64,000 bases of DNA from Streptomyces sp. NBC_01304 (GTDB lineage: Bacteria; Actinomycetota; Actinomycetes; Streptomycetales; Streptomycetaceae), in the NCBI RefSeq assembly GCF_035975855.1, contig NZ_CP109055.1, forward strand, positions 5,084,001-5,148,000. The letters run 5' to 3'. Both the position numbers and the translations under genes were made by a program. The notes under the pieces are model-generated. The model saw nothing but the letters and a program-made list of their open reading frames with translations, did not search any database and was not told the origin of the DNA. Of this stretch, positions 38,278 to 57,213 are shown one piece after another (positions within the stretch are counted from its first letter, which is position 1; every line of letters begins with the position of its first letter).

Positions 38278-39717
38278 GTGAGCCCCGATTCGCTCGGCCT
38301 CGACGCCACCACCCGCTTCCTCCTGGGCCTCGCCTGCCTCCTGCTGCTCACGCACGCGGCGGGCCGGCTGGCCCGTCGGGTCGGGCAGCCCGCGATCCTC
38401 GCCGAGCTTGCGGCGGGGGTGCTGCTCGGGCCGGCCTTCCTCGGCGAGCTGGCACCGGGAGCGCACGAGCTGCTGTTCGGGCCTGAGGTGTTGCCGCTGC
38501 TCGACGGGCTGGCCCAACTCGGGCTCGTACTGCTCGCCTTGCAGATAGGGCGGCTGCTCGTGGCCCCGGTGGCGGGTGTGGCGCGGGCGGGGGCCACGGT
38601 CGCGACCGTGAGCGCCTTCTCGTTCCTGGTGCCGCTCGCCGTCGGCGCGGCACTCGCCCCCGCCCTGACCGGCGGACACCCCGGCCCGGTGGACTCGCCC
38701 CTCGGCCGGGCGCTCTTCCTGGGCTGCGCGCTGAGCATCACCGCGCTGCCCGTCCTGGCCCGGCTGCTGCAGGACGAGGGGCTCACCCACACTCCGGCCG
38801 GGCGGATATCCCTGGCCGCGGCGGCCGTCGGCGACGCGGCGGCCTGGTGCGTGCTGACCGCGGCGCTGGTCGTGGCCGGGTCGGTGTCCGCGGTGCGGCT
38901 GCTGCCGGCCGCGGCGGGGGTGGTCCTCGTGGCGGTCCTCCTGCGGTGGCACCGGTCCCGCCGTACCCGGGGATCGGGCACGCTCGACCTGGCCGTCCTG
39001 GTCGCCGGGGCGCTGCTCGCCGCCGGGGCCTCCTCGGCGGCCGGGCTGCACCAGCTGCTCGGGGCGCTGCTCTTCGGGTACGTGTGGCAGCGCGGCCGAC
39101 CGCAGCACAAGCAGGGCCAGGCGAAGGGGCAGGAACAGGGGCAGAGGCAGGAGCAGGAGCAGGAGCAGGGCCAGGCGAAGGGGCAGGGGCAGGAGCAGGC
39201 CGACGACCCCCTGGACCGCATCGCCCCCTTGGGCGCCAAGGTGCTGCTGCCCTGCTTCTTCCTGGGCTTCGGGCAGAAGCTGGACCTGCGCGCGGTGGAG
39301 TGGAGCGGCGGATTCCTGCGCCTGGTCCTCGTGCTGCTCCTGATCGCCGTGGCGGTCAAGTCCGTGAGCTGCGCCGTCGCCGGGGTCCTGCGCGGACTGC
39401 CGAGGCCGGAGTGGCTGCGGCTCGCGGTGCTGATGAACTCGCGCGGCCTCACCGAGATCGTGGTGCTCTCGGTGGGCTACGACGCCGGGCTCATCGACCG
39501 CACGCTCCTCATCGCCCTCACCCTGGTCGCGCTCCTCACGACCGGGATGGCGGGCCCGGGGCTGCGGCTCCTCGACCGCCACATACCCGCCGGGCCCGCC
39601 GGAACGGAGGTCAAGCAGGCCGCAGCCACACCGCCCCCAGCGGCGGCAGGGTCAGCTCCGCACTCCGCGCGAGCCCCTGCCACGGCACGTCCTGAGCGGC
39701 GATCCGCCCGGAGTTGA
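38278..39717 (+). CDS. Cation:proton antiporter (CPA2 / Na+/H+ exchanger type)
   Basis: A 479-residue membrane protein with about twelve hydrophobic segments, starting LGLACLLLLTHAAGRLARRVGQPAILAELAAGVLLGP, the classic CPA2 opening. LSITALPVLARLLQDEGL and LMNSRGLTEIVVLSVGYDAGLI are also typical. In CPA2 proteins these exchange K+ or Na+ for protons. Odd points: a ~33-residue Gln/Glu/Gly/Lys insert (39102-39201) between membrane segments, and a ~45-residue Ala/Pro/Arg tail whose last 35 codons run antisense to the end of glgB (107-bp convergent overlap). The GTG at 38278 follows AGGTGG. Confidence 0.85.
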   Translation: MSPDSLGLDATTRFLLGLACLLLLTHAAGRLARRVGQPAILAELAAGVLLGPAFLGELAPGAHELLFGPEVLPLLDGLAQLGLVLLALQIGRLLVAPVAGVARAGATVATVSAFSFLVPLAVGAALAPALTGGHPGPVDSPLGRALFLGCALSITALPVLARLLQDEGLTHTPAGRISLAAAAVGDAAAWCVLTAALVVAGSVSAVRLLPAAAGVVLVAVLLRWHRSRRTRGSGTLDLAVLVAGALLAAGASSAAGLHQLLGALLFGYVWQRGRPQHKQGQAKGQEQGQRQEQEQEQGQAKGQGQEQADDPLDRIAPLGAKVLLPCFFLGFGQKLDLRAVEWSGGFLRLVLVLLLIAVAVKSVSCAVAGVLRGLPRPEWLRLAVLMNSRGLTEIVVLSVGYDAGLIDRTLLIALTLVALLTTGMAGPGLRLLDRHIPAGPAGTEVKQAAATPPPAAAGSAPHSARAPATARPERRSARS

Positions 39718-41953
39718 GGGCCCCGCCGCCGCCGTACGCCACCGCATCCGTGCTCAGCACCTCGGTCCAGTCGCCGCCCGCCGGGAGGCCGACGCGGTAG
39801 TGGTGGCGTACGCCCGGCTGGAAGTTGAAGACGCAGACCAGCGGGCAGCCTGCGGCGTCGTACCGGACGAACGAGTACACGTTGTCCTGAGCGGCGTCGG
39901 CGTCGATCCACGTGAAACCGTCCGGGCTCGCGTCCCGCTCCCACAGGGCGGGCAGCTCCAGATAGCGGCGGTTCAGGTCGCGCACGAGGTCGCGCACGGC
40001 CTCGTGGGGCGCGTACCGGGAGACGCCCCAGTCCACGCCCGCCTCGTGCGACCACTCGCTGTCCTGCGCGAACTCCTGGCCCATGAAGAGGAGTTGCTTG
40101 CCCGGGAAGGACCACATGAAGGCCAGATAGGCGCGCAGGCCGGCGAACTGCTGCCAACGGTCGCCGGGCATCTTCCCCAGTAGGGAGCCCTTGCCGTGCA
40201 CGACCTCGTCGTGGCTGATCGGCAACATGTAGTTCTCGGCGTACGCGTACACCATCGGGAAGGTCATCGCGTGGTGGTGGAACTGGCGGTGCACGGGGTC
40301 CTCGGCCATGTAGGACAGCGAGTCGTGCATCCAGCCCATGTTCCACTTCAGGCCGAAGCCGAGGCCGCCGTGGTCGGTGCGGCGGGTCACGCCGTCCCAT
40401 GCGGTGGACTCCTCGGCGATGGTGAGGGCGCCGGGCGAGCGGCGGTAGACGGTGGCGTTCATCTCCTGCAGGAACTCCACCGCGTCCAGGTTCTCCCGGC
40501 CGCCGTACTCGTTCGGCAGCCATTGGCCGTCGGCGCGCGAGTAGTCGAGGTAGAGCATGGAGGCGACGGCGTCCACGCGCAGGCCGTCGATGTGGAACTC
40601 CTCGCACCAGTAAGTGGCGTTGGCGACAAGGAAGTTACGGACTTCGGTGCGGCCGAAGTCGAAGACGTACGTTCCCCAGTCGGGGTGTTCGCCGCGGCGC
40701 GGGTCGGGGTGTTCGTAGAGCGGGGTGCCGTCGAAGCGGGCCAGGGCCCAGTCGTCGCGCGGGAAGTGCGCGGGCACCCAGTCGACGATGACGCCGATGC
40801 CGGCCCTGTGCAGGGCGTCGACGAGGTGGCGGAAGTCGTCCGGGCTGCCGAGGGCCGCCATGGGGGCGAAGTAGGAGGTGACCTGGTAGCCCCAGGAGCC
40901 GCCGAAGGGGTGCTCGGCGACCGGCAGGAACTCGACGTGGGTGAAGCCCAACGCCTTGATGTACGCCGGGAGTTCGAGGGCGAGATCGCGGTAGCCGAGG
41001 CCCGGGCGCCACGACCCGAGGTGCATCTCGTACACACTCATCGGCGCCTGCTCGACCGGACGTGCGCCGCGCGCCGCCAGCCAGTCCGCGTCCTGCCACT
41101 CGTAGTGCGAGGTCTCCACGATCGACGCTGTGCCGGGGGCGGACTCGGCCGCGCGAGCGAGGGGGTCGGCCTTCTGGATCCAGTCGCCGTCGCGGGTGAG
41201 CAGCTCGTACTTGTAGCGGGTGCCGTCGCCGACGCCCGGGACGAACAGCTCCCAGATGCCGCTCGCGCCGAGGGAGCGCATCGGGTGGGCGGCGCCGTGC
41301 CAGTGGTTGAAGTCGCCGATCAGGCGGACGGCGCGGGCGTTCGGGGCCCAGACGGCGAAGGTCGTTCCGGTCACCGGGGCCCAACCTGCCGTCACTTGCC
41401 CGGTGTTGGCGCCGAGGACCTGCCAGAGCTGCTCGTGGCGGCCCTCTCGGATCAGGTGCAGGTCCAGTTCTCCGAGGGAGGGTGGGAAGCGGTAGGGGTC
41501 GTCGTGGACGAAGAGGTCTTCGCCGTAGCGGGCGGCGACGCGGTAGTCGGGTATCTCGGTGGTGGGGAGCAGGCCGGTGAAGACGCCTCCGGCCTCGTGC
41601 GTCAGCTCGGCCAAGGGCTCGCCCTCGGGGGTCATCAGCTGGACTGCGTCCGCGAGGGGGCGTAGGACGCGGACGGTCACCCCGGTGGGGCCCGGGTGGG
41701 GGCCCAGCAGGGCGTGCGGGTCGCTGACCTCGCCGGTGGTGAGGCGCTTGAGGTCTGTGGGGGCCAGCGGCGGGGCTTTCAGGGCGAGCGGCGCCGGGGT
41801 GGGGCTTGCCATGCGTTCAGCGCACTCGGCGCCTTCGTGCTGTGCCCACCCGTTCCGCCCTGCGGAACGATTGCCCACAGCGGTGGCGGTAGCGGTAGCG
41901 GTAGCGGAACGACTGCCCACAGCGCGGGGAGCGGAGGGGTCGGTGAGGGTCAC
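39611..41953 (-). CDS. glgB: 1,4-alpha-glucan branching enzyme
   Basis: GlgB moves alpha-1,4 chain ends to alpha-1,6 positions in glycogen. The 780-residue protein has an N-terminal carbohydrate-binding beta domain (~65-160, DPHALLGPHPGPTGVTVRVL), CBM48 (~170-270, TTFAVWAPNARAVRLIGDFNHW) and the GH13 barrel with Asp in GLRVDAVASMLY, Glu in LTIAEESTAWDGV and the transition-state Asp in PISHDEVVHGKG, ending in a beta sandwich. The first ~60 residues are low-complexity (SRSATATATATAVGNRSAG), partly encoded by hexamer repeats. The GTG at 41951-41953 overlaps the glgE stop (GTGA). A shorter start at ATG 41811-41813 (MASPTPAP) would drop the odd tail. Confidence 0.95.
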   Translation of the reverse strand: MTLTDPSAPRAVGSRSATATATATAVGNRSAGRNGWAQHEGAECAERMASPTPAPLALKAPPLAPTDLKRLTTGEVSDPHALLGPHPGPTGVTVRVLRPLADAVQLMTPEGEPLAELTHEAGGVFTGLLPTTEIPDYRVAARYGEDLFVHDDPYRFPPSLGELDLHLIREGRHEQLWQVLGANTGQVTAGWAPVTGTTFAVWAPNARAVRLIGDFNHWHGAAHPMRSLGASGIWELFVPGVGDGTRYKYELLTRDGDWIQKADPLARAAESAPGTASIVETSHYEWQDADWLAARGARPVEQAPMSVYEMHLGSWRPGLGYRDLALELPAYIKALGFTHVEFLPVAEHPFGGSWGYQVTSYFAPMAALGSPDDFRHLVDALHRAGIGVIVDWVPAHFPRDDWALARFDGTPLYEHPDPRRGEHPDWGTYVFDFGRTEVRNFLVANATYWCEEFHIDGLRVDAVASMLYLDYSRADGQWLPNEYGGRENLDAVEFLQEMNATVYRRSPGALTIAEESTAWDGVTRRTDHGGLGFGLKWNMGWMHDSLSYMAEDPVHRQFHHHAMTFPMVYAYAENYMLPISHDEVVHGKGSLLGKMPGDRWQQFAGLRAYLAFMWSFPGKQLLFMGQEFAQDSEWSHEAGVDWGVSRYAPHEAVRDLVRDLNRRYLELPALWERDASPDGFTWIDADAAQDNVYSFVRYDAAGCPLVCVFNFQPGVRHHYRVGLPAGGDWTEVLSTDAVAYGGGGALNSGRIAAQDVPWQGLARSAELTLPPLGAVWLRPA
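41862..41930. repeat. Hexamer array and 21-bp direct repeat within the glgB 5' end
   Basis: Five tandem hexamers (GGTGGC then GGTAGC four times, 41882-41911) are bracketed by near-identical 21-bp repeats starting GCGGAACGA (41862-41882 and 41910-41930, one mismatch, 48-bp period). They encode the Ala-Thr run and the paired VGSRSAT/VGNRSAG sequences of the GlgB leader. Confidence 0.85.
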
Positions 41954-44007
41954 GACTGGGAGTTCCTGTCCGTGGTCGACGTGAAGATGTGGGCCACCTG
42001 CTGCTGTGGATCGAGGCGTACGTAGTTGTCGCGGGCCCAGTGGTACGTCTCGCCGGTGAGTGCGTCGTGGGCGTCGAAGGTGTCGGCGCGGTCGAGGCCG
42101 AGGGCCGGCAGGTCGAGGGAGACGGTGGCCTCGCGGACGCTGTGCGGGTCGAGGCTGAGGACGACCAGGACCCAGTCGTCGCCGTCCTCGGTCACGGAAC
42201 GCTTGGAGAAGGCGACCACCGCGTCGTTGTCCGTCCGGTGGAAGCGCAGGTTGCGCAGCTGGTGCAGGGCCGGGTGGGCGCGGCGCAGTTCGTTCAAGGT
42301 GCGCAGGAGCGGGGCCAGTGAGCGGCCCTCCGCCTCGGCCGACTCCCAGTCCCTGGGCCGGTACTGGAACTTCTCCGAGTCCAGGTACTCCTCGCTGCCG
42401 GGCCCGGCCGGCACGTTCTCGTACAGCTCGTAGCCCGCGTACACCCCCCAGGTCGGCGCCGCCATGGCGGCGAGCACAGCCCGGACCGCGAAGGCGGGAC
42501 GGCCCCCGTACTGGAGGTAGGCGTTGAGGATGTCCGGGGTGTTCACGAAGAGGTTGGGTCGCAGATAGGCCGCGCTGTCCTCGCCGCCCAGGCCCGCCAG
42601 TTCGCTCAGGTACGACTCGACCTCGTCCTTCGAGTTCCGCCAGGTGAAGTACGTATAGGACTGGTGGAAGCCGGTCCGGGCGAGGGCGTGCATCATCGCG
42701 GGGCGGGTGAACGCCTCGGCCAGGAAAAGGACATCGGGGTCGGTCGTGTGCACGGCCTCGATGAGGCGCTCCCAGAAGGCGACCGGCTTGGTGTGGGGGT
42801 TGTCGACGCGGAAGATGCGTACGCCGTGATCCATCCAGTGGCGGAGGACGCGCAGGCATTCGTCGTGCAGGCCGTCCGGGTCGGTGTCGAAGTCGATGGG
42901 GTAGATGTCCTGGTACTTCTTCGGCGGGTTCTCCGCGTAGGCGATGGTGCCGTCCACGCGGTGCTTGAACCACTCGGGGTGCGCCTCGACCCAGGGGTGG
43001 TCGGGCGAGCACTGCAGGGCGAAGTCGAGGGCGATCTCCAGGCCCAACTCGCCTGCGTGGGCGACGAATGCGTCGAAGTCCTCGATCGTTCCCAGGTCGG
43101 GGTGGATCGCGTCGTGGCCGCCGTCGGCCGAGCCGATCGCCCAGGGCGAGCCCGGGTCGTGCCGGCCGGGAGTGAGGGTGTTGCCCGCGCCCTTGCGGTG
43201 GGTGGTGCCGATCGGGTGGACGGGCGGGAGGTAGACGACATCGAAGCCCATGTCCGCTACGGCGGGCAGCCGTTCGGCGGCCGTGCGGAAGGTACCCGAG
43301 CGCGGGGCGCCGAGCACGCCGTCGGCGTCCCGGGTCGCGGGCAGGGCGCCCTCGGAGCGCGGGAAGAACTCGTACCAGGCGCCGTACAGGGCCCGCTCGC
43401 GGTCGACCCGCAGCGGCAGTTCGGGCGAGCGCGTCACCAGGTCGCGCAGCGGGCGGGCCGCCAGATGGGCGGTGACCACGGGGGTGAGGGCGGCGGCCAG
43501 GCGCTCGTCGGGGGTGAGGTGTTCGTCGCCGATGAGGTCGAGGGCGCGCTTCAGGACCGATACGGCGCCCGCGGTCTCGGCCTCGTCCAGGGCGCGCTCC
43601 AGGAGCAACGCACCTTCGGTGAGCACCAGTTCGGTGTCGAGGCCGGCCGGTATCTTCACCTCGGCGGTGTGCCGCCAGGTGGCGACGGGGTCGGTCCAGG
43701 CCTCCACCCGGTACGTCCAGTCGCCCTCGCGGCCGGCGCGGATCTGCGCGGCATAGCGGTCGGTGCCGGGGGCGAGGAGCCGCATCGGGGTCCAGTCGTC
43801 CACCGCCACCCCGTCCGGGCCGGTGAGCACGACATTGGCGCCCACCGCGTCGTGCCCCTCGCGGAACACGGTCGCCGACACCTCGAAGGTCTCCCCCGGC
43901 ACGGCCCGGGCGGGGCGGCGGCCCGCGTCCACCTGGGGGCGTACGTCCACGATGGGGATGCGGCCGACGGTCGCGCCGAAACGGTGGGCGGCGGGCGTGC
44001 CTTGCAT
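41950..44007 (-). CDS. glgE: Alpha-1,4-glucan:maltose-1-phosphate maltosyltransferase
   Basis: GlgE adds maltose from maltose-1-phosphate to the ends of alpha-glucan chains. The 685-residue protein has the N-terminal beta domain (VGRIPIVDVRPQVDAGRRPARAV), helical insert 1, and the GH13_3 core with nucleophile Asp402 in FRVDNPHTKP, acid/base Glu431 in FLAEAFTRP and Asp492 in NTPDILNAYLQ. HPIGTTHRKG and ENPPKKYQDIYPI are GlgE signatures. ATG 44005-44007 has GGAGG at about 8 nt; an in-frame ATG at 44041-44043 overlaps the MinD-like stop (ATGA) and would add 12 residues. glgB follows with a 4-bp overlap. TreS and Pep2, usual partners, are not nearby. Confidence 0.96.
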   Translation of the reverse strand: MQGTPAAHRFGATVGRIPIVDVRPQVDAGRRPARAVPGETFEVSATVFREGHDAVGANVVLTGPDGVAVDDWTPMRLLAPGTDRYAAQIRAGREGDWTYRVEAWTDPVATWRHTAEVKIPAGLDTELVLTEGALLLERALDEAETAGAVSVLKRALDLIGDEHLTPDERLAAALTPVVTAHLAARPLRDLVTRSPELPLRVDRERALYGAWYEFFPRSEGALPATRDADGVLGAPRSGTFRTAAERLPAVADMGFDVVYLPPVHPIGTTHRKGAGNTLTPGRHDPGSPWAIGSADGGHDAIHPDLGTIEDFDAFVAHAGELGLEIALDFALQCSPDHPWVEAHPEWFKHRVDGTIAYAENPPKKYQDIYPIDFDTDPDGLHDECLRVLRHWMDHGVRIFRVDNPHTKPVAFWERLIEAVHTTDPDVLFLAEAFTRPAMMHALARTGFHQSYTYFTWRNSKDEVESYLSELAGLGGEDSAAYLRPNLFVNTPDILNAYLQYGGRPAFAVRAVLAAMAAPTWGVYAGYELYENVPAGPGSEEYLDSEKFQYRPRDWESAEAEGRSLAPLLRTLNELRRAHPALHQLRNLRFHRTDNDAVVAFSKRSVTEDGDDWVLVVLSLDPHSVREATVSLDLPALGLDRADTFDAHDALTGETYHWARDNYVRLDPQQQVAHIFTSTTDRNSQS

Positions 44008-44039: not shown

Positions 44040-44807
44040 TCATCGACGTATCCCTGAAGTCCCGTTGCTCACTGCGGAGATGATCCGGCGATAGCCCGTC
44101 ACCAGCGGATGCTGCGGATACGCCGTGCTGAACAGCCGCTCCCCCGCGAGCACCGACATCTCGGGGGCGTACGGCAGGACCGCCGTGAGGCGGGTGTCAT
44201 AGGCGGACTCGACCTCGCCGCGCAGCCGCTCGCCGATCCCCCCGTCCGGCACCATGTTCACGGTGACGCTGAGGCGGTGACAGCCGAGGCGGCGGGCGAG
44301 CGCCATGGTCTCGCGGGCGCCCGCGAGGTCGAGGCGGTCGGCGCGGGTCATGATGACCAGGGCGTCGGCGCTGGCCATCGCGGTGACCGTCTCGTTGTTG
44401 AAGCCCGCGTGGGTGTCCAGGATCAGGACGTCCAGGGCGAGCGAGTCGATGAGCCGGTCGAAGCCCTCGCGCAGCAGGCCCACGTCGTAGCCGCGCCCCA
44501 TGATCTCGTTGACGCCCGCGGCCCGGCTGCGGGCCGGCACCAGGAACAGCCCGTCGTGCCCCGCGTCCGCCCGCGCCGGGGCGGCGGCGTCCTCGATCTC
44601 GCAGCGGCCCATCAGGTAGTCGGTGAGCGAGCGGCGCACCGGGGCCCCCGCGGGGCCGAACATCACGTCCAGGCACGGCGTCTGGATGTCCGTGTCCACC
44701 AGGGCGACCCGGCGGCCCGCCGAGGCGAGCAGCAGCGCGAGGTTGGCGGCCGTGCTGGATTTGCCCGTTCCTCCTCGGTAGGAGTGCATGGTGATGATCT
44801 GCGACAT
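44040..44807 (-). CDS. MinD/ParA-like ATPase with arginine in the deviant Walker A
   Basis: A 255-residue P-loop ATPase of the SIMIBI (MinD/ParA) class. The deviant Walker A motif is YRGGTGKSS at residue 10, with Arg where the signature lysine of KGGxGK normally sits; switch I VDTDIQTPCLD and Walker B DVLILDTHAG follow, then the NMVPDGG segment. No C-terminal amphipathic helix like that of MinD is obvious. Genes of this 'HSYRGGTGK' type often sit beside SpoIIE phosphatase genes in Streptomyces. Here it lies between the phosphatase gene and glgE in one operon. Whether it positions a complex in the cell or has a signalling role is unknown. Confidence 0.85.
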   Translation of the reverse strand: MSQIITMHSYRGGTGKSSTAANLALLLASAGRRVALVDTDIQTPCLDVMFGPAGAPVRRSLTDYLMGRCEIEDAAAPARADAGHDGLFLVPARSRAAGVNEIMGRGYDVGLLREGFDRLIDSLALDVLILDTHAGFNNETVTAMASADALVIMTRADRLDLAGARETMALARRLGCHRLSVTVNMVPDGGIGERLRGEVESAYDTRLTAVLPYAPEMSVLAGERLFSTAYPQHPLVTGYRRIISAVSNGTSGIRR

Positions 44808-46097: not shown

Positions 46098-46687
46098 GGT
46101 GTTCGTCTCCGCTGTTCCTGGGCCGGGGCCGAGTCCTGGACCCCGGCCGCCGAGGACCGCCGCATGGTGAGGGTGCTGACGTTGCGGCCCGCCACCAGCT
46201 CGTAGTCGAAGGTGTCCACCGAGGTGAAGGCGAGGTAGACGCCGAGCCCCCCGATCTCCCGCTGCTCCAGCGGCATGTCCCGGTCCGGGGCCCGCATGCC
46301 CTGCCGCGGGTCGAAGGCGGGGGCGTCGTCCACGAACCGGACCCAGACCCGGTCTGCCTCGATCCCGCCGGCCACCGAGACCCGGCCGCCCGGGATGTCC
46401 CGGTAGCCGTGCATGACGATGTTGGTCGCCAGCTCGTCGGCGGCGAGCCGCAGCCGGTACAGGGCACTGTCGGCGAGCCCGGCCTGCCCGCCGAGCCGCA
46501 GCACGAACTCGGCCACCCTGTCGAGCTCGGCGAGCTCGGCAGGCACGGTGATCGCGGTCGCGGTCGCGACCGTGAGCGGGGGCCACTCGGGCTCGTACCG
46601 GACACAGGCCTCGGACCGTACGCGGCCCGCCGGGCCGGAGACGGCCCGGACGCCACCCTCGGACGCGGAAACGGAATCGAAAGCCAT
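46094..46687 (-). CDS. RsbW-like anti-sigma kinase / ATP-binding protein
   Basis: A 197-residue GHKL ATPase. After a ~45-residue unstructured leader it shows the N-box LRLAADELATNIVMHGYRDI, the G1 box WVRFVDDAPAFDP and the G2 lid REIGGLGVYLAFTSVDTFDYE. These fit the SpoIIAB/RsbW kinases that phosphorylate STAS antagonists and bind a sigma factor. No sigma-B type factor is encoded in the window, so the target is either encoded elsewhere or is not a sigma factor. It is 14 bp after a STAS gene and overlaps the phosphatase gene by 4 bp, forming a complete partner-switch set. Confidence 0.92.
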   Translation of the reverse strand: MAFDSVSASEGGVRAVSGPAGRVRSEACVRYEPEWPPLTVATATAITVPAELAELDRVAEFVLRLGGQAGLADSALYRLRLAADELATNIVMHGYRDIPGGRVSVAGGIEADRVWVRFVDDAPAFDPRQGMRAPDRDMPLEQREIGGLGVYLAFTSVDTFDYELVAGRNVSTLTMRRSSAAGVQDSAPAQEQRRRTP

Positions 46688-47042: not shown

Positions 47043-49162
<2,120 letters not shown>

Positions 49163-49166
<4 letters not shown>

Positions 49167-49504
49167 CGGCCTGCCCGCGCCAGCTCGGAGCCGACGTCCT
49201 CGCCGATCCGGAAGAAGTCCAGGAACCCGGTCGCGTTCATCACGAACCGGACCTCCTCCGACAGGCCGACCAGGGTGATCTCCGCGTCCACCTGCTGGGC
49301 GCGGCGGTGCACGATCAGCAGGGTGCGCAGGCCTGCGCTGGAGACGTACGAGACTCCGGTCAGATCGATGAGGACGGCGCTGCCCGGCCGCACGAAGGGC
49401 AGCAGCTGGGCCTGCAGGCCGCCCGAGGTGGTGGAGTTGATCTCCCCCTCCAGGACGACGACCGAGGTGTCGCCCTCGGCGCGCGAGGTCACCTTGACGG
49501 TCAT
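49163..49504 (-). CDS. STAS domain antagonist protein (second)
   Basis: A 113-residue stand-alone STAS domain: MTVKVTSRAEGDTSVVVLEGEINSTTSG, then the loop IDLTGVSYVSSAGLRTLLIVHRRA, close to the SpoIIAA consensus with phosphorylatable serine in VSSAGLR, and a C-terminal helix EEVRFVMNATGFLDFFRIG. It differs clearly from the other STAS protein of the operon, so the two may answer different inputs or bind different partners. It overlaps the preceding AGE-family gene (stop 49501-49503) and glgX (ATG 49164-49166) by 4 bp each. Confidence 0.93.
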
Positions 49505-51372
49505 CCGGTCACCTCTGCCTTGCCAGTAGAGGAGTTGGGGGCGAGCCGCACCTTGATCTTCACGCGGCCCGAGGTCTCCGGAAGGCGCACGGTCAGCGCG
49601 TCCGCGTCGAAGTCGGCGTACGGCTCGCCCTCGATCTCGACGGAGTCGATGCGCACCGAACCGGCCGGCAGCAGATCCGGCGCCACCCGCAGCGTGCGGT
49701 CCTCGACCAGGGCGGGGTCGGGCTTGAACCAGAAGTCCATCGGCTTCCCGCTGATCAGCAGGTTGTTGTAGACCGCGGCGAGGAAGCACAGCTCCGCCGA
49801 GTGGTACATCGACATCGAGTGGCTGCCCTTGTGGCGCTCGACGCCGAGCAGGTACGGCAGGCCGCTCGCGAGGACGTTGAAGTAGACGGCGCCCTCGTCG
49901 TGGTCGAGGAAGAAGGCGTTGTAGAACGACTGGGCGTCGCGCGCCTCGGTGCGGAACTCCTCGCGCCCGGTGATCCCGTGCAGGATCAGGTAGGCCAGGA
50001 TCGCCTGCTCCTGCTGCCACCAGGCCTTGCGGTCGTGCCAGGTGAAGCGGAAGCGGTCCTCGCCGTCGACCTTGAGCCGCTCGACGACGTCGTACCAGCC
50101 ACCGCGCTGCCGGTCGCCGCCGACCTCGGGCATGGTCTCGCCGATGGCGGCGGCCGTGTCGAGGTAGGCGTCCTTGGCGCGCAGCGAGTGCATGCGCATC
50201 AGGTTCCAGGCGATCTTCAGGTTGTGCCCGACGACCGCCCGGTCCTGCTGCCAGCCGTGCGTGGTGTCGGCCGACCAGTCCTTGTGGAAGCGCTCCTGCA
50301 CGAAGGGGCTGTTCTTGGTGTCCGGGAAGCGCTCGACGATGGTGTCGAAGGTGTACTCCAGCATGTCGGCGTAACTCTGCTCGCCGGTCGCCAGATAGAG
50401 GTTGATCAGGTACGCGGGTGCGTGGTCACCGACCGAATTCCAGTTCTTGCGGGCCTTGTTGGGGCCGAGCGAGTCGTGCTCGGGGCTGAGCAGGATCGGG
50501 TCGATGTGCGAGAAGTAGCCGCCCTGCTCGGGGTCGAGGTAGAAGCGGTCGAAGAGCCGGATGGTGGCGTCGGCGTCGGCCTTGATCCGGGGGTCGCCGG
50601 TGACGCGGAAGGTCTGGACGGGGCCGGCGAGGGCGTAGATCTGCTCGTACGCGGGCAGCGCGTCGTAGTCGTCGTCGAACTCCGAGGTGAACAGCTTCGT
50701 CTCGACGTCGCCGTCGACCTTGAGGCCGTGGTACCAGTACGTGACGTTCTCGTCGGTGTCGACGAAGCGCATGTGCTCGCGCAGATACTCGGTGCCGCGC
50801 TCGGCGACCTCCAAGTACTCGTCGTTGCCGGTGAGTTGGAAGGCCGAGGCCATGCCGTAGACGAGCCGCGAGATGGTGTCCGTCTCCTGGACGTGGCTGC
50901 CGGTCTTCTCACCGCTGAGCCGGATCTCGGTGCGGTACTGCTTGAAGTCAATGGGTCCTTCGCCGAACTGGGCCTTGCGGTAGAAGTCGGCGATCTCCTC
51001 GATCTGCTTGACCCACCAGAGCGACTCCTCGAACCGGAAGTCGGTGGCGTCGCGGCCGACGAAGACCAGCCGCTTGGCCTCGAAGCGCAGTCCGCCCGCG
51101 GCCGGGTCCCTCGTGGCCGGGCCCTTCGGATAGAAGATCCCGTACGCGAAGACGAAGGCGCCCTCCGTCAGGAGTTCGTCGATGTGGCCGGAGGCGTCCT
51201 GGTACGGCTCGCCCAGGTTGTGCAGGAGCTCCGCGCTGGGGCCGCCGTCGAGGGATATCTCGAAGCTGCGGCCGTCCGCGCCGGCCACCGTGAAGAGGCG
51301 GGCGGCGCGGTCGAAGCCGGTGACCCGGCCCGCGATGGTGTCGGAGAACGTGAAGTTCACTTCATTGGTCAT
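49501..51372 (-). CDS. AGE-family (N-acylglucosamine 2-epimerase-like) protein with extra N-terminal domain
   Basis: A 623-residue protein. Residues ~130-530 form an (alpha/alpha)6 barrel of the N-acylglucosamine 2-epimerase / cellobiose epimerase superfamily, shown by FRFTWHDRKAWWQQEQAILAYL, GDHAPAYLINLYLATGEQSYAD and the His-containing HGWQQDRAVVGHNLKIAWN. An N-terminal ~115-residue beta-rich domain (FSDTIAGRVTGFDRAARLFTVAGADG) and a C-terminal ~80-residue beta domain are added. Family enzymes epimerise or isomerise sugars; the substrate here may be an oligosaccharide linked to the glucan genes, which is inference. The ATG overlaps the LtrA-type stop by 4 bp. Confidence 0.78.
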   Translation of the reverse strand: MTNEVNFTFSDTIAGRVTGFDRAARLFTVAGADGRSFEISLDGGPSAELLHNLGEPYQDASGHIDELLTEGAFVFAYGIFYPKGPATRDPAAGGLRFEAKRLVFVGRDATDFRFEESLWWVKQIEEIADFYRKAQFGEGPIDFKQYRTEIRLSGEKTGSHVQETDTISRLVYGMASAFQLTGNDEYLEVAERGTEYLREHMRFVDTDENVTYWYHGLKVDGDVETKLFTSEFDDDYDALPAYEQIYALAGPVQTFRVTGDPRIKADADATIRLFDRFYLDPEQGGYFSHIDPILLSPEHDSLGPNKARKNWNSVGDHAPAYLINLYLATGEQSYADMLEYTFDTIVERFPDTKNSPFVQERFHKDWSADTTHGWQQDRAVVGHNLKIAWNLMRMHSLRAKDAYLDTAAAIGETMPEVGGDRQRGGWYDVVERLKVDGEDRFRFTWHDRKAWWQQEQAILAYLILHGITGREEFRTEARDAQSFYNAFFLDHDEGAVYFNVLASGLPYLLGVERHKGSHSMSMYHSAELCFLAAVYNNLLISGKPMDFWFKPDPALVEDRTLRVAPDLLPAGSVRIDSVEIEGEPYADFDADALTVRLPETSGRVKIKVRLAPNSSTGKAEVTG

Positions 51373-52601
51373 GTCAGTCTCCCAGGTGCGGGTTCGGTGG
51401 GACCTGCGGTCCGGGTCTCGATGAGGATCTGGCCGCTCAGGCCGGCGATCAGGACGGCCTCGTAGAGCACCGGGTCGAGGGCCGGGTCGACGGCCGCGAG
51501 GACCAGGCAGGCCAGGCCCAGGCCGATCCGCGTCCAGCCCCGCAGGTCCCCGCGGTGGCCGCTGTTGAGCAGATGGATCAGCCCGATGGCGAGCAGGAAC
51601 ACGGCAACGCCGGTGCACAGCACCGGACCCCAATTGGCCCCGTGTCCCCCGCCCTTGAGGGCGTCCGCCGCGAGCAGCCCGCCGACACCGGTCATCCCGA
51701 TGCCGCAGCAGACGGCCAGATGCCCGTACACATAGCCCTGGCCGCCGAGGCGCCAGCTGCGCAGCTGTGCCGAGTCCACATGGTCGAAGACGAGCCACCA
51801 CTGGGCCGCGGCGAGGAAGAAGGTCCCGGCCACCACCGCGAGGGCCTTGGGCCGCAGGTCGCTCTCGTCGAGCCCGATCGCGTTGAGGGCGATGACCTCG
51901 CCGAGCGCGATGATGGTGAACATCCCGAACCGCTCCGGGATGTGCTCCAGATCGAACGGGACCTGCGCGATCACCCCGGCAGACAGGAACGGCACCAGGA
52001 ACTCGGCCGCAAGCCCGGTCACCCACAGCAGATAGCAGTACGGCTGCGGCACGAACACCGCCGCGGTCCAGATGGCGGCGCCGGCCGCGAAGCCCGTCAT
52101 GTAGCGGCGGGTCAGCGGGCGGGCCTTGGGGATGTGGTAGTGCGCCCGGGCATAGAGCCCCACCAGCAGGAGCCGCCCGGCCACATAGCCGACGGCGAAC
52201 CCGACGGCCCCCTGCCGGGAGCTGAACGCCTCGTAGATCGACACCGCCATCACCAGGACGGCGAGCATCGCCCCGAGCATCATCAGGCGGTGCAGCCGGT
52301 CGTCGTTGTCGAACCGGTCCCCGTAGAAGGTGTAGGTGACCCAGGTCCACCAGATGGCCGCGAACAGCGCCACGTACTGCAGCCCGCCCGACCAGGACGG
52401 TACGTGCCGCAGAAACTCGACGAGCCCGGCGACGGCTACGACGAAGACCAGGTCGAAGAGGAGCTCCAGCGGGCTGACCCGGCGGTCCTGCTCCTCCTCG
52501 TCGATCCGGAACTTCAGCTGGCCCCGGCGCGGCCGCAGCGCGCCGATCCGCAGCCGGGGACTGTCGTCCTCGGCCGCATCCGGTGAATCCAGGACAGCCA
52601 T
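51369..52601 (-). CDS. LtrA family (low temperature requirement A) membrane protein
   Basis: A 410-residue polytopic protein of the LtrA family, first linked to low-temperature growth in Listeria; its biochemical function is unknown. The family opening RVSPLELLFDLVFVVAVAGL lies near residue 40, followed by WWTWVTYTFYGDRFDNDDRLHRLMML and the central FTIIALGEVIALNAIG, with about eleven hydrophobic segments in all. The ATG at 52599-52601 is 2 bp after the NTF2-like stop, and the stop overlaps the AGE-family start, so it is in the middle of the operon. Confidence 0.9.
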   Translation of the reverse strand: MAVLDSPDAAEDDSPRLRIGALRPRRGQLKFRIDEEEQDRRVSPLELLFDLVFVVAVAGLVEFLRHVPSWSGGLQYVALFAAIWWTWVTYTFYGDRFDNDDRLHRLMMLGAMLAVLVMAVSIYEAFSSRQGAVGFAVGYVAGRLLLVGLYARAHYHIPKARPLTRRYMTGFAAGAAIWTAAVFVPQPYCYLLWVTGLAAEFLVPFLSAGVIAQVPFDLEHIPERFGMFTIIALGEVIALNAIGLDESDLRPKALAVVAGTFFLAAAQWWLVFDHVDSAQLRSWRLGGQGYVYGHLAVCCGIGMTGVGGLLAADALKGGGHGANWGPVLCTGVAVFLLAIGLIHLLNSGHRGDLRGWTRIGLGLACLVLAAVDPALDPVLYEAVLIAGLSGQILIETRTAGPTEPAPGRLT

Positions 52602-52603
52602 CG

Positions 52604-52990
52604 TCAGGCCTCGGTGACCTGGGTGTGCGCGGCGTCGTGGTAGCCCTTGGCCTCGGTGACCAGGCCGGCGTCGTCCACCTTGAAGGTGTCGATGCCGGTC
52701 TCGCGGACCACGCCGCCGTCCTTCTTGTACGCAGTGATGCCGAAGACGAAGGCCGCCTCGTCACCGGTGACGATCAGGTCCTTGAGCTCGAACTCCACCC
52801 GGTCGATGACGTCGAAGAGACCGTCGAAGAAGCCGAGGACCGCGTCCCGGCCCCGGTTGGGCGTCGAGCCCACCGGCTCGTAGTGCACGACGTTCTCGGC
52901 GAACAGGCCGGCGAACTTCTCCCGGTCCTGCTTGTTGAAGCTGTCGACGTATCCCTCGACGGCCTCGCGTATCTGCGCTTCAGTCGGCAT
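52604..52990 (-). CDS. NTF2-like / SnoaL-type small protein
   Basis: A 128-residue protein of the NTF2-like (ketosteroid isomerase, SnoaL) fold, opening MPTEAQIREAVEGYVDSFNKQDREKFAGLFAENVVHYEPVGS and later VEFELKDLIVTGDEAAFVFGITAYKK. Such folds serve as small enzymes or ligand-binding scaffolds; no catalytic Asp/His pair can be assigned with certainty. It is 18 bp after the DJ-1/PfpI gene and 2 bp before the LtrA-type gene. Confidence 0.87.
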   Translation of the reverse strand: MPTEAQIREAVEGYVDSFNKQDREKFAGLFAENVVHYEPVGSTPNRGRDAVLGFFDGLFDVIDRVEFELKDLIVTGDEAAFVFGITAYKKDGGVVRETGIDTFKVDDAGLVTEAKGYHDAAHTQVTEA

Positions 52991-53008: not shown

Positions 53009-53617
53009 TTACTTAGAGCTTGTTTCGATCTCGCGGACGAACGTGTCCATGAACCGCTCGGTCACCTCGGGGTGCTTGGCGGTGATCAGGTCCCCGTCGA
53101 CGACGAGCTCCGCGGTGCCCGAGCCCTCGTAGACGACCTCGGCGCCGGCGTTCTCCACATCGCAGACGATGTTGTGCGCGCAGGTCACCCGGCGCCCGGC
53201 GAGCAGCTCCCGGTCGGCGCAGAGCAGCCACAGCGAATGGCAGATCGTGCCGATCTTCAGCCCGTCCACGGCCGCGGCGGACCGCAGGAACTCCACGGCC
53301 GGTGCCTTGTTGCGGCTGCCCGGACCGGGGATCTCGACCTGGTAGCGCAGCCGGTCCATGGCGTACGCGCCGATCAGGATGACACCCACGTAGTCGGCGG
53401 GGTCGATGGCGGTGAGCTCGGTGGTCACCGTGACGTGGTCCTCGACGGTCCCGTTGTCCGGGTTGCTGCCGAAGGTCAGCGACGGCTGGTCCCACAGGTG
53501 GGAGACGTACTCCACCTCGTAGCCGTGGGCCGGGAAGTACGCGTTGAACGCCCGGTATTCGGTCTGGTCGAAGTGGTCCTCGATGAGGACGGCGATCCTG
53601 CCCTTGGCCTCCGCCAC
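53009..53617 (-). CDS. DJ-1/PfpI family protein (PfpI type)
   Basis: A 202-residue DJ-1/PfpI domain protein. The conserved acid is in IAVLIEDHFDQTEYRAF (~residue 14) and the nucleophile elbow is IGTICHSLWLLCADREL with Cys near residue 120 followed by His, as in PfpI-type proteins; HNIVCDVENAGAEVVYEG matches the following helix. Members act as peptidases, glyoxalase III or detoxifying hydrolases; which applies is not visible. The GTG at 53615-53617 is 4 bp after the SnoaL-like stop. This is one of three divergent DJ-1/PfpI members in the cluster. Confidence 0.9.
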   Translation of the reverse strand: MAEAKGRIAVLIEDHFDQTEYRAFNAYFPAHGYEVEYVSHLWDQPSLTFGSNPDNGTVEDHVTVTTELTAIDPADYVGVILIGAYAMDRLRYQVEIPGPGSRNKAPAVEFLRSAAAVDGLKIGTICHSLWLLCADRELLAGRRVTCAHNIVCDVENAGAEVVYEGSGTAELVVDGDLITAKHPEVTERFMDTFVREIETSSK

Positions 53618-53621
53618 GGCG

Positions 53622-54038
53622 TCAGGCCCCGAGACCGAGCGGCTTGAGCAGCTGGCCGGGATCGAAGAAGGCGGTGACCTCCTTGATCAGGCCGTCCTCG
53701 ATCCGGAAGATGTTCATCCCCCGCACCTCGATGTGCTCGCCGGTCGGGGCCGCGCCCATGAAGACACCCCGGTGGGTGCCGGTGATGGTGAACGAGGCGG
53801 CGACCTTGTCGTCCTGTTCCAGGAGGTCGTCGATGGTGAAGACACGGTCCGGGAAGCCGCCGTACCAGCGCAGCGCGAACTCCTTGTACGCGGGCAGGCC
53901 GTGGATGCCGTTCGGTGAGATCGGGTTGTTGAACACCACATCGGGCGCCATGATCTTGTCGGCAATCTGCAGATCGCCGGGAGCGGTCAGGAACTCCTCG
54001 TAGTACGTGTGGACAAGCTTGGTCCCCTCGTCGGCCAT
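53622..54038 (-). CDS. SnoaL-like polyketide cyclase / ester cyclase family protein
   Basis: A 138-residue SnoaL-like protein: KLVHTYYEEFLTAPGDLQIADKIMAPDVVFNNPI, then GLPAYKEFALRWYGGFPDRVFTIDDLLEQDDKVA and GHIEVRG-type beta strands ending GLIKEVTAFFDPGQLLKPLGL. SnoaL enzymes catalyse ring closures in aromatic polyketide pathways, but many relatives have other or no activity. Together with the GMC oxidoreductase and ABM-VOC genes upstream it suggests modification of a small molecule. AAGGAGG precedes the ATG at good spacing; the GMC stop is 31 bp upstream. Confidence 0.88.
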   Translation of the reverse strand: MADEGTKLVHTYYEEFLTAPGDLQIADKIMAPDVVFNNPISPNGIHGLPAYKEFALRWYGGFPDRVFTIDDLLEQDDKVAASFTITGTHRGVFMGAAPTGEHIEVRGMNIFRIEDGLIKEVTAFFDPGQLLKPLGLGA

Positions 54039-54069
54039 GGGACCCTCCTTCGCGAGTGAGTGGCTGGGA

Positions 54070-55578
54070 TCAGGCGTCCTGCAGGAACCATTCGGCAGCG
54101 CGCTCGCCGATGACGTAGCAGGTCAGATTGGGGTTGGCGCTGACGTGGGTCGGCATCACCGATGCGTCGACCACATTCAGGTTCTGCACTCCGTGCACCC
54201 GCAGCCGCTGGTCGACCACCGCGGTCGGGTCGCCGGCCGCGCCCATCTTGGCGGTGCCGACCGGGTGCCACAGGGTGGCGGAGTTCTCCCGGATGTAGTC
54301 GAGCAGCAGGGCGTCGTCGTCGACCTGGCGCTGGGTGAGCTTGTCCGAGAGACCGGACGACAGGTCCTGGATCTGCTTGGAGTTGGCGATCTCCCAGGAC
54401 AGTCGTACGCCGTCCATGGCGATCTTCTGGTCCGCCGCGGTGCCGTACGAGTTGAGGACGATCTCGGGCTGCACCGCCGGGTCGGCGCTGCGCAGCGAGA
54501 CCCGGCCCCGGCACTCGGGCTTCTGCAGCACGCTCATCACGCTGATGGGGCGGTGGGTGACCGGTACATAGCGGCTGACGAAGTACAGCTGCATGTCGTT
54601 GAACTGCTCGGAGCCCGGGTTGGTGTAGCGCACCAGGACCTGGACGTCCGGGTCGTTCGGGTCGGTGACGCCCTCCTTGGGCAGCAGGCCGACCGTGATC
54701 TGCTGGTGCTCGATCAGGTTGGCGCCGACGTTCGGCTGGTCGAGCACGACGTCGATGCCGAGCTCGCGCAGCTCGTCCTTCGGGCCGATGCCCGAACGCA
54801 GCAGGATGGCGGGCGAGTTGAGGGCGCCGGCGGACAGCGTGATCTGGTCGCCGTAGACCTTCTCCAGCGTGCCGCCGGTTTCCACCTCCACGCCGACGGC
54901 CCTGGTGCCCTCGAAGAGCACCCGGTGCACGGTGGCACCCGCCTTGATGGTGAGGTTCTTCCGCTTGCGGGCCTCGGTGAGGTAGGCGATCGCGGTCGAG
55001 ATCCGCAGGTCGCCCCTGCGGTTCATCGGGATCGGGCCGACACCCGTGGACTGGGGGTCGTTGTGGTCCTCGACGTAGCCGAAGCCCTGGTCGAGGCAGG
55101 CCTCCAGATAGGCGGCCTGGAACGGCACCAGCTCGTCACGGGTGGCGCGGACGACCGGGGTCGGACCGCCCTTGCCGTGGAACGGGCCGTCGAAGTCCTG
55201 GTCGTCCTCGATTCGGCGGAAGTACGGCAGCAGTGAGCTCCACGCCCACTCGTCGTTGCCCAGCTGGGCCCACTCGTCGTAGTCCGCCGGGATGCCGCGC
55301 AGCGCGATGGCGCCGTTGACCGCGGAGCAGCCACCGGCCACCTTGCCACGGGCGTACGTCAGCGAACGGCCGGGGACCGCCTCGGCGGTGTAGCCCCAGT
55401 CGTGGTCCTCGACGGACACGGTCCGGGCGTTGGTGAGGTCGGCGGGGATGGCGGAGTTGTCGGCCCAGTCCGGGCCGGCCTCCAGGAGCAGGACGCTGAC
55501 GCCGGAGTTCTCGGTGAGCCTGCTGGCGAGGACGGCGCCGGAGGAGCCGGCACCCACGACTATGTGGTCGTAACGCAT
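54070..55578 (-). CDS. GMC family FAD-dependent oxidoreductase
   Basis: A 502-residue flavoenzyme of the glucose-methanol-choline family. The FAD-binding GxGxxG is at the N-terminus (YDHIVVGAGSSGAVLASRL), with GMC signature 1 ARGKVAGGCSAVNGAI and signature 2 GALNSPAILLRSGIG. The catalytic His is in SATLWHPVGTAKMG, with the Asn partner near PNLTCYVIGERAAEW. Such enzymes oxidise primary alcohols, including choline-like, aryl and sugar alcohols; the substrate is unknown. No signal peptide. ATG 55576-55578 follows GGAAGGGAA and is 118 bp after the ABM-VOC stop, the widest gap in the operon. Confidence 0.94.
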   Translation of the reverse strand: MRYDHIVVGAGSSGAVLASRLTENSGVSVLLLEAGPDWADNSAIPADLTNARTVSVEDHDWGYTAEAVPGRSLTYARGKVAGGCSAVNGAIALRGIPADYDEWAQLGNDEWAWSSLLPYFRRIEDDQDFDGPFHGKGGPTPVVRATRDELVPFQAAYLEACLDQGFGYVEDHNDPQSTGVGPIPMNRRGDLRISTAIAYLTEARKRKNLTIKAGATVHRVLFEGTRAVGVEVETGGTLEKVYGDQITLSAGALNSPAILLRSGIGPKDELRELGIDVVLDQPNVGANLIEHQQITVGLLPKEGVTDPNDPDVQVLVRYTNPGSEQFNDMQLYFVSRYVPVTHRPISVMSVLQKPECRGRVSLRSADPAVQPEIVLNSYGTAADQKIAMDGVRLSWEIANSKQIQDLSSGLSDKLTQRQVDDDALLLDYIRENSATLWHPVGTAKMGAAGDPTAVVDQRLRVHGVQNLNVVDASVMPTHVSANPNLTCYVIGERAAEWFLQDA

Positions 55579-55696: not shown

Positions 55697-56476
55697 CTAC
55701 TCGGACTCGAGGCCACCGGGGTACACGCCGGTGCGCACCCACTCGTCGATGGGGCCGCGGTCGCCGGTGTCCACGTACTCGATGCGCGCGCCCATCAGAT
55801 CGGGCGCAGTGATCACGGCGAACGGAGTGGAGTCGGCATCCTTGCGGAAGGCCGCATCGACGCCCACGCCCTGCTTCTCGAGGAGTTCGAGCCGCCCGGC
55901 CATGTCGTCCTCCCAGACGCCGTAGTACAGGATCTGCCCGGCGTTCTTCGCCGAGACGATCCCGTCCCCGTCGGCCTGGATCAGCTCGTAGTACGGCGCG
56001 CCCGTCTTGGAGAACGCGCAGACCAGCTCGAAGGGGTGCGGCTCGGGGTCCTCCAGGCGCGGCACCTTGAAGGTGGCGGGCTCGGTGAACTCGATGCCGA
56101 ACACCTCGGAGTAGCGGGCGATCGCCGCCTCCAGGTCCGGGACCACGATGCCCACGTGGAAGAACGAGTCGGGCAGCTGCGGGCCCGGTGTGACGTCGCG
56201 GTGGACGGTCACCTCCGGGAACTCCTCAAGGCATTCCAGAAGATTCGGAATGAAGTCGCGGAGGTAGTCGGTCGACTTGTGGAATTCCAGGGCGGCGTAG
56301 TCCCGGTAGCGCTCCACGACGAGGCGGGTATTACCGCCCTCCTCCGGGCGCACATAGTCGAAGCCGACACAACCAGGCTCATTGGCGCGGATCTTGGCGG
56401 CCAGGGCGGACATGAGGATTTCCAGCTCGGCCTCCTTTCCCGCCTTGACGATCTGCTTTGCGGTGACGGTGATCAT
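55697..56476 (-). CDS. Fusion of ABM monooxygenase-like and VOC (glyoxalase-like) domains
   Basis: A 259-residue two-domain protein. Residues 1-95 are an antibiotic biosynthesis monooxygenase (ABM) ferredoxin-like fold (MITVTAKQIVKAGKEAELEILMSALAAKIRANEPGC ... VVERYRDYAALEFHKSTDYL). Residues ~100-255 are a VOC fold (DSFFHVGIVVPDLEAAIARYSEVFGIEF ... GAPYYELIQADG ... IEYVDTGDRG) with a His, Glu and Glu suited to metal binding. ABM domains oxidise aromatic rings without cofactors; VOC domains use a metal. The fusion suggests sequential steps on one substrate. It overlaps the DJ-1/PfpI stop by 4 bp (ATGA). Confidence 0.88.
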   Translation of the reverse strand: MITVTAKQIVKAGKEAELEILMSALAAKIRANEPGCVGFDYVRPEEGGNTRLVVERYRDYAALEFHKSTDYLRDFIPNLLECLEEFPEVTVHRDVTPGPQLPDSFFHVGIVVPDLEAAIARYSEVFGIEFTEPATFKVPRLEDPEPHPFELVCAFSKTGAPYYELIQADGDGIVSAKNAGQILYYGVWEDDMAGRLELLEKQGVGVDAAFRKDADSTPFAVITAPDLMGARIEYVDTGDRGPIDEWVRTGVYPGGLESE

Positions 56477-57213
56477 GCCTGACCACCGCGGCCCGGAAGG
56501 AGCATCGGCTCGAAGAAGTCGGTGAACTTCTCCTCGAGTTCGGGGTGCTGGTAGAACTCCGGACCGGTCTGCTGGAAGATCTGGTCACCGATTCCGCCGA
56601 AGGTGTCGAACATCATCGAGACGACGGTGCCGACCTCCTTGCCGAAGTAGTTGGCGACCAGCGCGACGGTGGATCCGTTCACTCCGTACGAACCGGTGGT
56701 GGTCCAGATCTTCTTGGCCTCGTCGTGCAGCCACATGTGGCGCGGCGAGGGGACGTTGGTGCCCTCGGCACGCAACCCACGGGCCACTGCTGCGACGCAG
56801 GTCACCGGGGTGTCGCCGAGGATTCCGGAGCGGGAGAGGATGCCGATGCCGGAGCAGTTGCCGGCGATGACCTTCCCGTTCACGTGGTGGTGACGGATCG
56901 CGTCGAGAATGCGGCCGTCCTGGGTCATCTTCCCGGAGCCGACACCGCCGGGAACGTAGAGGATGTCGAAGAGCTGACCCTCCTCGAGCACGGCGTCCGG
57001 CACCACCTGGGTGCCCATCTGCATGACGACATTGCCCGGGTCGAGCGACACGAACTTGACGTCGAGTTCGCGCGGCTCCTCCGCGAGCGGCCACGGTGCG
57101 ATCTGGTGGGCGAGCACCATTGCGGTGCCCTTGAAGATTTCGAGCGGGGTGATGGTGTCCTGCTCGCTGCAGCTCTCGTAACCGAGAACGGCCACGGTTT
57201 TGATCTCGGCCAT
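56473..57213 (-). CDS. DJ-1/PfpI family protein (isonitrile hydratase-like)
   Basis: A 246-residue DJ-1/PfpI protein, first gene of the long leftward operon. It opens IKTVAVLGYESCSEQDTITPLEIFKG, and the nucleophile elbow is VNGKVIAGNCSGIGILSRSG with Cys near residue 120. This resembles the isonitrile-hydratase and AraC-N-terminal type of the superfamily, in which the Cys attacks a small carbon-nitrogen substrate. ATG 57211-57213 follows GGAGG at 8 nt. The 234-bp divergent gap to the MFS gene should hold the promoters of both transcription units; I could not assign boxes with confidence. Confidence 0.88.
   Translation of the reverse strand: MAEIKTVAVLGYESCSEQDTITPLEIFKGTAMVLAHQIAPWPLAEEPRELDVKFVSLDPGNVVMQMGTQVVPDAVLEEGQLFDILYVPGGVGSGKMTQDGRILDAIRHHHVNGKVIAGNCSGIGILSRSGILGDTPVTCVAAVARGLRAEGTNVPSPRHMWLHDEAKKIWTTTGSYGVNGSTVALVANYFGKEVGTVVSMMFDTFGGIGDQIFQQTGPEFYQHPELEEKFTDFFEPMLLPGRGGQA

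Follow-up and report, generated by a model that had tools for sequence, protein, structure and literature searches.

Within a stretch of 64,000 nucleotides of Streptomyces sp. NBC_01304 (contig NZ_CP109055.1, positions 5,084,001 to 5,148,000; hereafter the window), sixteen minus-strand open reading frames (ORFs) run in one direction from position 57213 to 39611. The core of this set, consisting of the genes for DJ1b, AGE, STAS1, GlgX, STAS2, a kinase and a phosphatase, is almost certainly an icfG-type cluster, and sequence comparison indicates homology to the carbon-metabolism switch of Synechocystis. The system is real, deeply conserved and of a known kind; its lineage here is unexpected and its form is new, the Streptomyces version differing in its receiver-like phosphatase domain, its MinD protein and its appended GlgE-GlgB genes. 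The original prediction, made from the sequence alone, had not recognised the combination of genes; the core corresponds to the Synechocystis icfG cluster (slr1855-slr1861). At the level of sequence, the gene set and its order, two ancient STAS lineages and the retained motifs of the switch and the enzymes are established.

The Synechocystis operon slr1852-1862 is described, in passages of PMC12329169 and PMC8670252, as encoding an N-acetylglucosamine 2-epimerase (Slr1855), an isoamylase (GlgX2; Slr1857), two putative anti-sigma factor antagonists (Slr1856 and Slr1859), the IcfG phosphatase (Slr1860) and a kinase (Slr1861). According to passages of PMC12329169 and PMC11619594, Slr1861 acts both as an anti-SigC factor and as a kinase for Ssr1600, Slr1856 and Slr1859, and a carbon-source growth phenotype is reported for the switch. 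Links between the cluster and the carbon and glucose metabolism of Synechocystis go back to the 1990s (Beuf 1994 and Shi 1999, cited in a passage of PMC12329169). Among the open-licence literature matches listed, we found no description of an icfG-type cluster outside cyanobacteria, and passages of PMC6458275 show no such cluster; the literature searched offered no explanation of why the icfG switch genes are interspersed with those for GlgX and AGE. Streptomyces, a very different bacterium from cyanobacteria, provides a tractable non-photosynthetic host for testing the switch, its signal and its target.

Gene content and motifs of the core

The original prediction had named the gene families of the unit and a complete partner switch whose genes are interspersed among those of glucan enzymes. 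Every one of these families was recovered by Pfam, and the kinase, the phosphatase and the two STAS proteins were confirmed. The core genes and those that continue the unit to its end are:

53009..53617, minus strand: DJ1b, DJ-1/PfpI protein (PF01965)
49501..51372, minus strand: AGE-family sugar epimerase/isomerase-like protein (623 amino acids), Slr1855 counterpart
49163..49504, minus strand: STAS1, RsbV-like, Slr1856 counterpart (TIGR00377, 66.4 bits, cut-off 53.45; invariant Ser; own clade)
47043..49166, minus strand: GlgX/isoamylase-type debranching enzyme, Slr1857 counterpart (TIGR02100, 692.5 bits, cut-off 640.9)
46702..47013, minus strand: STAS2, RsbV-like, Slr1859 counterpart (TIGR00377, 70.7 bits; invariant Ser; own clade)
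46094..46687, minus strand: RsbW/SpoIIAB-like HATPase kinase, Slr1861 counterpart (PF13581)
44844..46097, minus strand: receiver-like domain plus SpoIIE/PP2C phosphatase, IcfG (Slr1860) counterpart (PF07228)
44040..44807, minus strand: MinD/ParA-type ATPase with an RGGTGKS P-loop (PF13614/PF10609; alignment; profile matches to MinD and FleN)
41950..44007, minus strand: GlgE maltosyltransferase (PF11896 and PF21702; 965 bits to solved GlgE isoform 1)
39611..41953, minus strand: GlgB branching enzyme (TIGR01515, 931.6 bits, cut-off 463.95)

The STAS proteins are short (113 and 103 amino acids for STAS1 and STAS2), and the STAS1 set and the STAS2 set each span phyla; judged from their sequences, these are two ancient lineages, each kept in its place. 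The kinase gave profile matches to RsbW (6m36) and to anti-sigma F factors, and ExxxN and GGLG are invariant in the kinase alignment. The motifs of a partner switch are present, namely the phosphorylatable Ser of the STAS proteins, the N-box of the kinase and the metal-site residues of the PP2C domain, to which we assign their presumed usual roles. In a structure model of the phosphatase, approximately residues 1-103 form a receiver-type beta/alpha domain, and the best fold match is RssB of Pseudomonas aeruginosa.

The AGE protein has the (alpha/alpha)6 barrel and the paired catalytic His residues, with fold and separate searches covering residues ~103-543. Its scores against the NCBIfam equivalogs for N-acylglucosamine 2-epimerase and cellobiose 2-epimerase are below cut-off (28.8 of 600 and 25 of 800 bits), and a Lys, invariant in 24 aligned rows, replaces the Glu of the GHxxE motif of solved glucose 2-epimerase, a change that may mean a different reaction. 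Identity is 59-62% to eight cyanobacterial proteins and 36-64% to the other places compared. The highest-scoring solved structure for the module GlgX was plant chloroplast isoamylase 1 (666 bits); the glycogen debranching enzyme 2wsk, which we take to be E. coli GlgX, reached 462 bits. The genome encodes three further GlgX proteins, and a 100/99 branch of the GlgX tree places the module enzymes on one side and these three on the other. The non-module side also holds the GlgX of five AGE-GlgX pairs without STAS (loci L158, L161, L168, L169 and L175), and the module side also holds the pairs L163/L173 and L170.

Physical coupling of the GlgX start to a signalling gene, as originally predicted, was borne out by a 4-bp overlap of STAS1 and GlgX, which is also found in 10 of the 11 actinobacterial loci compared and in L116 and is absent from L086, L093 and L096. 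The same claim for GlgE is doubtful. It requires ATG 44043, the longest-ORF start, which overlaps MinD by 4 bp and has a counterpart in L033; ATG 44007 has AGGAGG just upstream, and six relatives leave 41-197 bp between MinD and GlgE when the start nearest to the match is used.

At the P-loop of MinD, all five aligned rows carry Arg at the position of the signature residue, which we take to be usually Lys; the RGGTGKS-type family is broad and includes numerous proteins from Chloroflexota and cyanobacteria, and most of its members occur without the module. The catalytic stretches of GlgE match the solved GlgE active site, whose residue roles we presume. A second GlgE-GlgB pair lies near C1 3.91 Mb (67% and 60% identical), and a GlgC gene lies at C1 1.89 Mb. 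One gene outside the unit may bear on this pathway:

36924..38177, plus strand: GlgM-type (glgA_Coryne) glycosyltransferase, convergent, beyond a Na/H exchanger gene (TIGR02149, 544.5 bits, cut-off 302.4)

In Streptomyces NBC_00083 (L039), the GlgM-type gene (81%) directly follows GlgB, likewise convergent. Together with GlgC, the GlgM-type enzyme could possibly supply maltose-1-phosphate to GlgE.

Distribution of the module

MinD relatives were searched by sequence in named genomes, and the best 80 of 560 confirmed stretches gave 79 loci. Twenty-eight MinD-similarity loci (L038-L065) come from Streptomyces, Streptacidiphilus, Sphaerisporangium and Planobispora (Streptomycetaceae/Streptosporangiaceae). 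Twenty-seven of these 28 have the order AGE-STAS1-GlgX-STAS2-kinase-phosphatase-MinD in full, which argues that the core order is more than chance; the contig of the other locus, L048, begins at the kinase. The full order also occurs in L035, from a genome of another family within the same taxonomic order, and in all complete modules read GlgX lies between STAS1 and STAS2. The SCO7325-SCO7338 region of S. coelicolor is a conjectural further counterpart. All 16 genes, together with divergent MFS and ferritin-like genes, are present in the same order in both Streptomyces NBC_00083 and Streptacidiphilus fuscans, so that the search for the same ordered set in other actinobacteria, proposed with the original prediction, found both the core with MinD and the whole unit. 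What follows MinD varies: GlgE-GlgB in L038-L051 (13 loci by strict count, 14 including L046, with matches in pieces), a DJ-1 protein, an aldehyde dehydrogenase and a molybdopterin-binding protein in place of GlgE-GlgB in L052, and a nucleotidyl transferase with a DJ-1 protein in L059.

Beyond Actinomycetota, four of the 51 loci L066-L116 (L086, L093, L096 and L116, all Chloroflexota) hold the whole module in order, with AGE cut by the contig end in L096 and a second MinD between phosphatase and MinD in L086 and L093. A Contendobacter contig (L115, extended as L171) carries the module with ~6 kb inserted before the phosphatase; because this is a single contig of a metagenome-assembled genome (MAG), a binning error is possible. 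The same AGE/STAS/GlgX/STAS/kinase/phosphatase set is present in the cyanobacterial loci L164-L166, the homology comparison having been made with cyanobacterial genomes other than Synechocystis 6803. The order is shared by Actinomycetota, Chloroflexota and one Contendobacter MAG, so the link does not depend on oxygenic photosynthesis; its likely common factor is glucan turnover.

An alignment search for AGE at E up to 1e-60, with counts that include this genome, gave matches in 2 of 396 sampled Actinomycetota genomes, 36 of 295 Streptomyces and 12 of 146 genomes of cyanobacteria (the phylum of the Microcoleus locus). Twenty-one of the 36 Streptomyces proteins reach at least 1195 bits, and all 21 loci have STAS1 and GlgX beside AGE. 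In cyanobacteria, AGE-STAS1-GlgX was found in 9 of the 12 genomes (in G475 with AGE in two pieces); the remaining three have AGE-GlgX without STAS (G467), AGE-STAS2-kinase and a separate AGE-GlgX (G585), or a distant AGE (36%) with DJ-1 only (G605).

Operon layout and the upstream redox genes

With the starts chosen here, 6 of the 15 junctions in the unit are 4-bp overlaps (DJ1a/ABM, LtrA/AGE, AGE/STAS1, STAS1/GlgX, kinase/phosphatase and GlgE/GlgB) and 9 are gaps of 2-118 bp, the widest (118 bp) lying between ABM-VOC and GMC. The sixteen co-directional genes, the gaps of at most 118 bp and the single operon-like unit of the original prediction are all consistent with these ORFs; its statement that 4-bp overlaps predominate was too strong. 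A pattern scan of 39000-58500 returned no sigma-70-like sites (0.7 in shuffles) and two terminator-like sites (5.1 in shuffles), a scan that covers few Streptomyces promoters and says little in Streptomyces; no promoter or terminator pattern clearly divides the 16-gene unit. A SigB-like G(T/G)TT-N-GGGTA box is absent from the operon strand, which says little because only 0.26 are expected in mononucleotide shuffles. Rfam at gathering thresholds and tRNA scans gave no matches. Minus-strand ORFs of 1133 and 1087 amino acids were rejected as over-long readings, the starts 41953 and 51372 fitting the neighbours, and plus-strand ORFs proposed from composition were set aside because minus-strand genes with Pfam matches occupy the same DNA.

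The remaining features of the unit and its promoter region are:

57347..57397, no strand: inverted repeat, operator candidate, divergent promoter region
56473..57213, minus strand: DJ1a, DJ-1/PfpI protein, first gene of the unit (PF01965; ATG 57213 with GGAGG upstream; syntenic in L180 and L181)
55697..56476, minus strand: ABM plus glyoxalase-like (VOC) protein (PF03992 and PF13669)
54070..55578, minus strand: GMC oxidoreductase, MftG-like (PF00732/PF05199; TIGR03970)
53622..54038, minus strand: SnoaL-like protein 1 (PF07366)
52604..52990, minus strand: SnoaL-like protein 2 (PF12680)
51369..52601, minus strand: LtrA family membrane protein (PF06772, E 2.4e-80), a gene between SnoaL2 and AGE that the original prediction left unnamed

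The GMC oxidoreductase clears the mycofactocin MftG cut-off narrowly (393.3 against 387.45 bits). ABM-VOC was matched at 92% in Streptomyces NBC_00083 and as two pieces in Streptacidiphilus fuscans. At 57391, the start of the MFS gene in its longest ORF falls within the high-coordinate arm of the inverted repeat. The repeat is common to all three 16-gene genomes, of which the repeat search listed two, the Streptacidiphilus copy (L181) being seen only by a pattern drawn from the same sequences; across 205 loci, most of which do not include the region, this pattern matched five, all from NBC_00083 and Streptacidiphilus fuscans.

The redox genes (DJ1a to LtrA) may lie upstream of the icfG-type unit by chance, as one of two blocks with no shared role. 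Such a reading applies to the upstream half alone and does not conflict with an icfG-type core; we regard it as possible, though on the unlikely side. The whole upstream set occurs in just 2 (L039 and L051) of the 26 loci of L038-L065 that extend upstream of AGE, and the core and the redox genes therefore behave as separate blocks. DJ1b points the same way, in that the DJ-1 of 22 of the 24 DJ-1-bearing loci is only 31-35% identical to it (75% and 84% in the other two); 14 loci have a distant GMC, and a promoter could lie in the 118-bp gap that precedes GMC. However, two other genomes, one of them from a different genus, keep the redox block intact along with the inverted repeat and the divergently transcribed MFS and ferritin-like genes, and a DJ-1 upstream of AGE is general (24 of the 28 loci and nine cyanobacterial genomes). 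DJ1b is 55-70% identical to the AGE-adjacent DJ-1 of those nine genomes; it may be an older DJ-1 that was retained, or it may have been separately acquired.

To the right of the operon, 58877-63584 (plus strand) carries ferritin-like (PF12902), DJ-1, MFS and aldo-keto reductase genes, a set that lies downstream of GlgB in Streptomyces sp. RB17 (L040), an alternative arrangement beside the module. On the other side, a SigE-family (extracytoplasmic function, ECF) sigma factor gene (34347-34913, minus strand) adjoins a gene for a 446-amino-acid protein without Pfam or NCBIfam match (32966-34306, minus strand).

Output of the switch and comparison with known systems

We consider it probable that the core, as an icfG-type partner switch, adjusts alpha-glucan turnover to the state of the cell through a sigma factor encoded elsewhere; taken by itself, a sigma factor as the output is an even call. 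The kinase would phosphorylate both STAS proteins at the conserved Ser, and the phosphatase, with its receiver-like domain as input, would strip the phosphate from at least one of them. An unphosphorylated STAS protein would capture the kinase and so free an effector, for which an alternative sigma factor from another locus is the likeliest candidate; phosphorylated STAS would leave the kinase free to hold its target, as in Rsb systems. GlgX would trim alpha-glucan branches, AGE would epimerise or isomerise the released sugar or the reducing-end glucose, and GlgE-GlgB, with GlgM nearby, would rebuild the glucan, so that the switch would share a single transcript with the enzymes whose output it has to follow. 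The phosphatase may be positioned or gated by MinD, which is the least certain step.

Several results weigh against this scheme. In passages of PMC12329169 and PMC11619594, IcfG dephosphorylates Slr1856 and not Slr1859 in Synechocystis, so that one simple switch loop may not apply. The receiver-like domain has no phospho-acceptor Asp in the actinobacterial alignment rows. No MinD was found in the cyanobacterial loci L164-L166 and L176, and the cyanobacterial order varies (phosphatase-kinase in L164, kinase-phosphatase in L166, both upstream of DJ-1 in L165). Conversely, 46 of the 51 loci L066-L116, including that of a Thermoleophilia actinobacterial MAG (L107), and also L036, have a MinD relative without the AGE module. 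Single module pieces occur in L088, L089, L090, L106 and L108; since most of these MinD loci show no AGE, the MinD family is broader than the module, although the absence of AGE is weak evidence because several loci are short. AGE-GlgX pairs without STAS also exist: among the 15 lower-scoring Streptomyces AGE, the nine loci first read comprise one with STAS1 (L155) and eight such pairs (L156-L163), two further loci comprise DJ-1/AGE/GlgX without STAS (L170) and one that ends after AGE (L172), and two cyanobacterial loci (L130 and L134) hold the pair. These pairs argue for a metabolic link between the two enzymes that does not need the switch. Finally, no SigB-family (SigBFG) sigma factor gene lies within the 64-kb window. 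Because eight genes elsewhere in the genome score above the SigBFG cut-off and SigC is a target in Synechocystis, a sigma factor encoded away from the unit is the first candidate.

Direct control of GlgX and/or AGE by the STAS proteins or the kinase, with no sigma output, is a real alternative and the main rival to a sigma output, although we judge it unlikely overall. The strict STAS-GlgX-STAS order, kept in every complete module, favours it and would reflect co-production of partners; the 4-bp STAS1/GlgX overlap and the absence of a SigB-type factor from the window fit as well. Against it stand the anti-SigC activity of Slr1861, reported in the abstract of PMC12329169, and the occurrence of AGE-GlgX pairs without STAS. 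In a more elaborate version, which we hold to be improbable, STAS1 and STAS2 would bind GlgX and/or AGE according to phosphorylation state, MinD and the receiver-like phosphatase would bring the switch to glycogen or to a particular place in the cell, and trimming and GlgE-driven rebuilding would be toggled post-translationally, any sigma branch being secondary. A fortuitous series of co-directional genes, of which the dense Streptomyces genomes generally have many, is scarcely credible, given that the core order is kept across phyla and the two STAS lineages stay in their places.

The core has its closest known relative in Synechocystis PCC 6803, where slr1852-slr1862, in the passages cited above, clusters AGE, STAS, GlgX/isoamylase, STAS, SpoIIE-type phosphatase and RsbW-like kinase. 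Unlike in the Streptomyces order, the phosphatase there precedes the kinase by locus numbers. DJ-1 stands beside AGE in the window as in the cyanobacterial loci L164-L166, and we take slr1854 to be a DJ-1 gene as well. The window differs from cyanobacterial icfG loci in having the upstream redox block as well as MinD and GlgE-GlgB, none of which lies in L164-L166 or L176. Its phosphatase has no GAF domain by Pfam and carries the receiver-like fold instead, whereas the L164 and L166 phosphatases have GAF domains; treating GAF as a defining criterion of the icfG family is our own assumption. In L164, the gene after the kinase encodes a GH13 amylase (12128-13999) that carries a CBM20 starch-binding domain.

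As in the Bacillus RsbV/RsbW/RsbU and SpoIIAA/SpoIIAB/SpoIIE switches, STAS proteins with a conserved Ser, a HATPase kinase and a PP2C phosphatase occur together; unlike in those systems, there are two STAS proteins, with glucan enzymes between, and no SigB-type gene in the window. The phosphatase model shares with P. aeruginosa RssB (receiver-PP2C) a receiver domain, a long helix and a PP2C domain, although the actinobacterial phosphatases do not have the phospho-acceptor Asp. GlgE and GlgB are both present, as in Streptomyces GlgE pathway loci, and overlap by 4 bp here, whereas ~3.3 kb, presumably TreS-Pep2, separates them in the second GlgE-GlgB locus of the genome.
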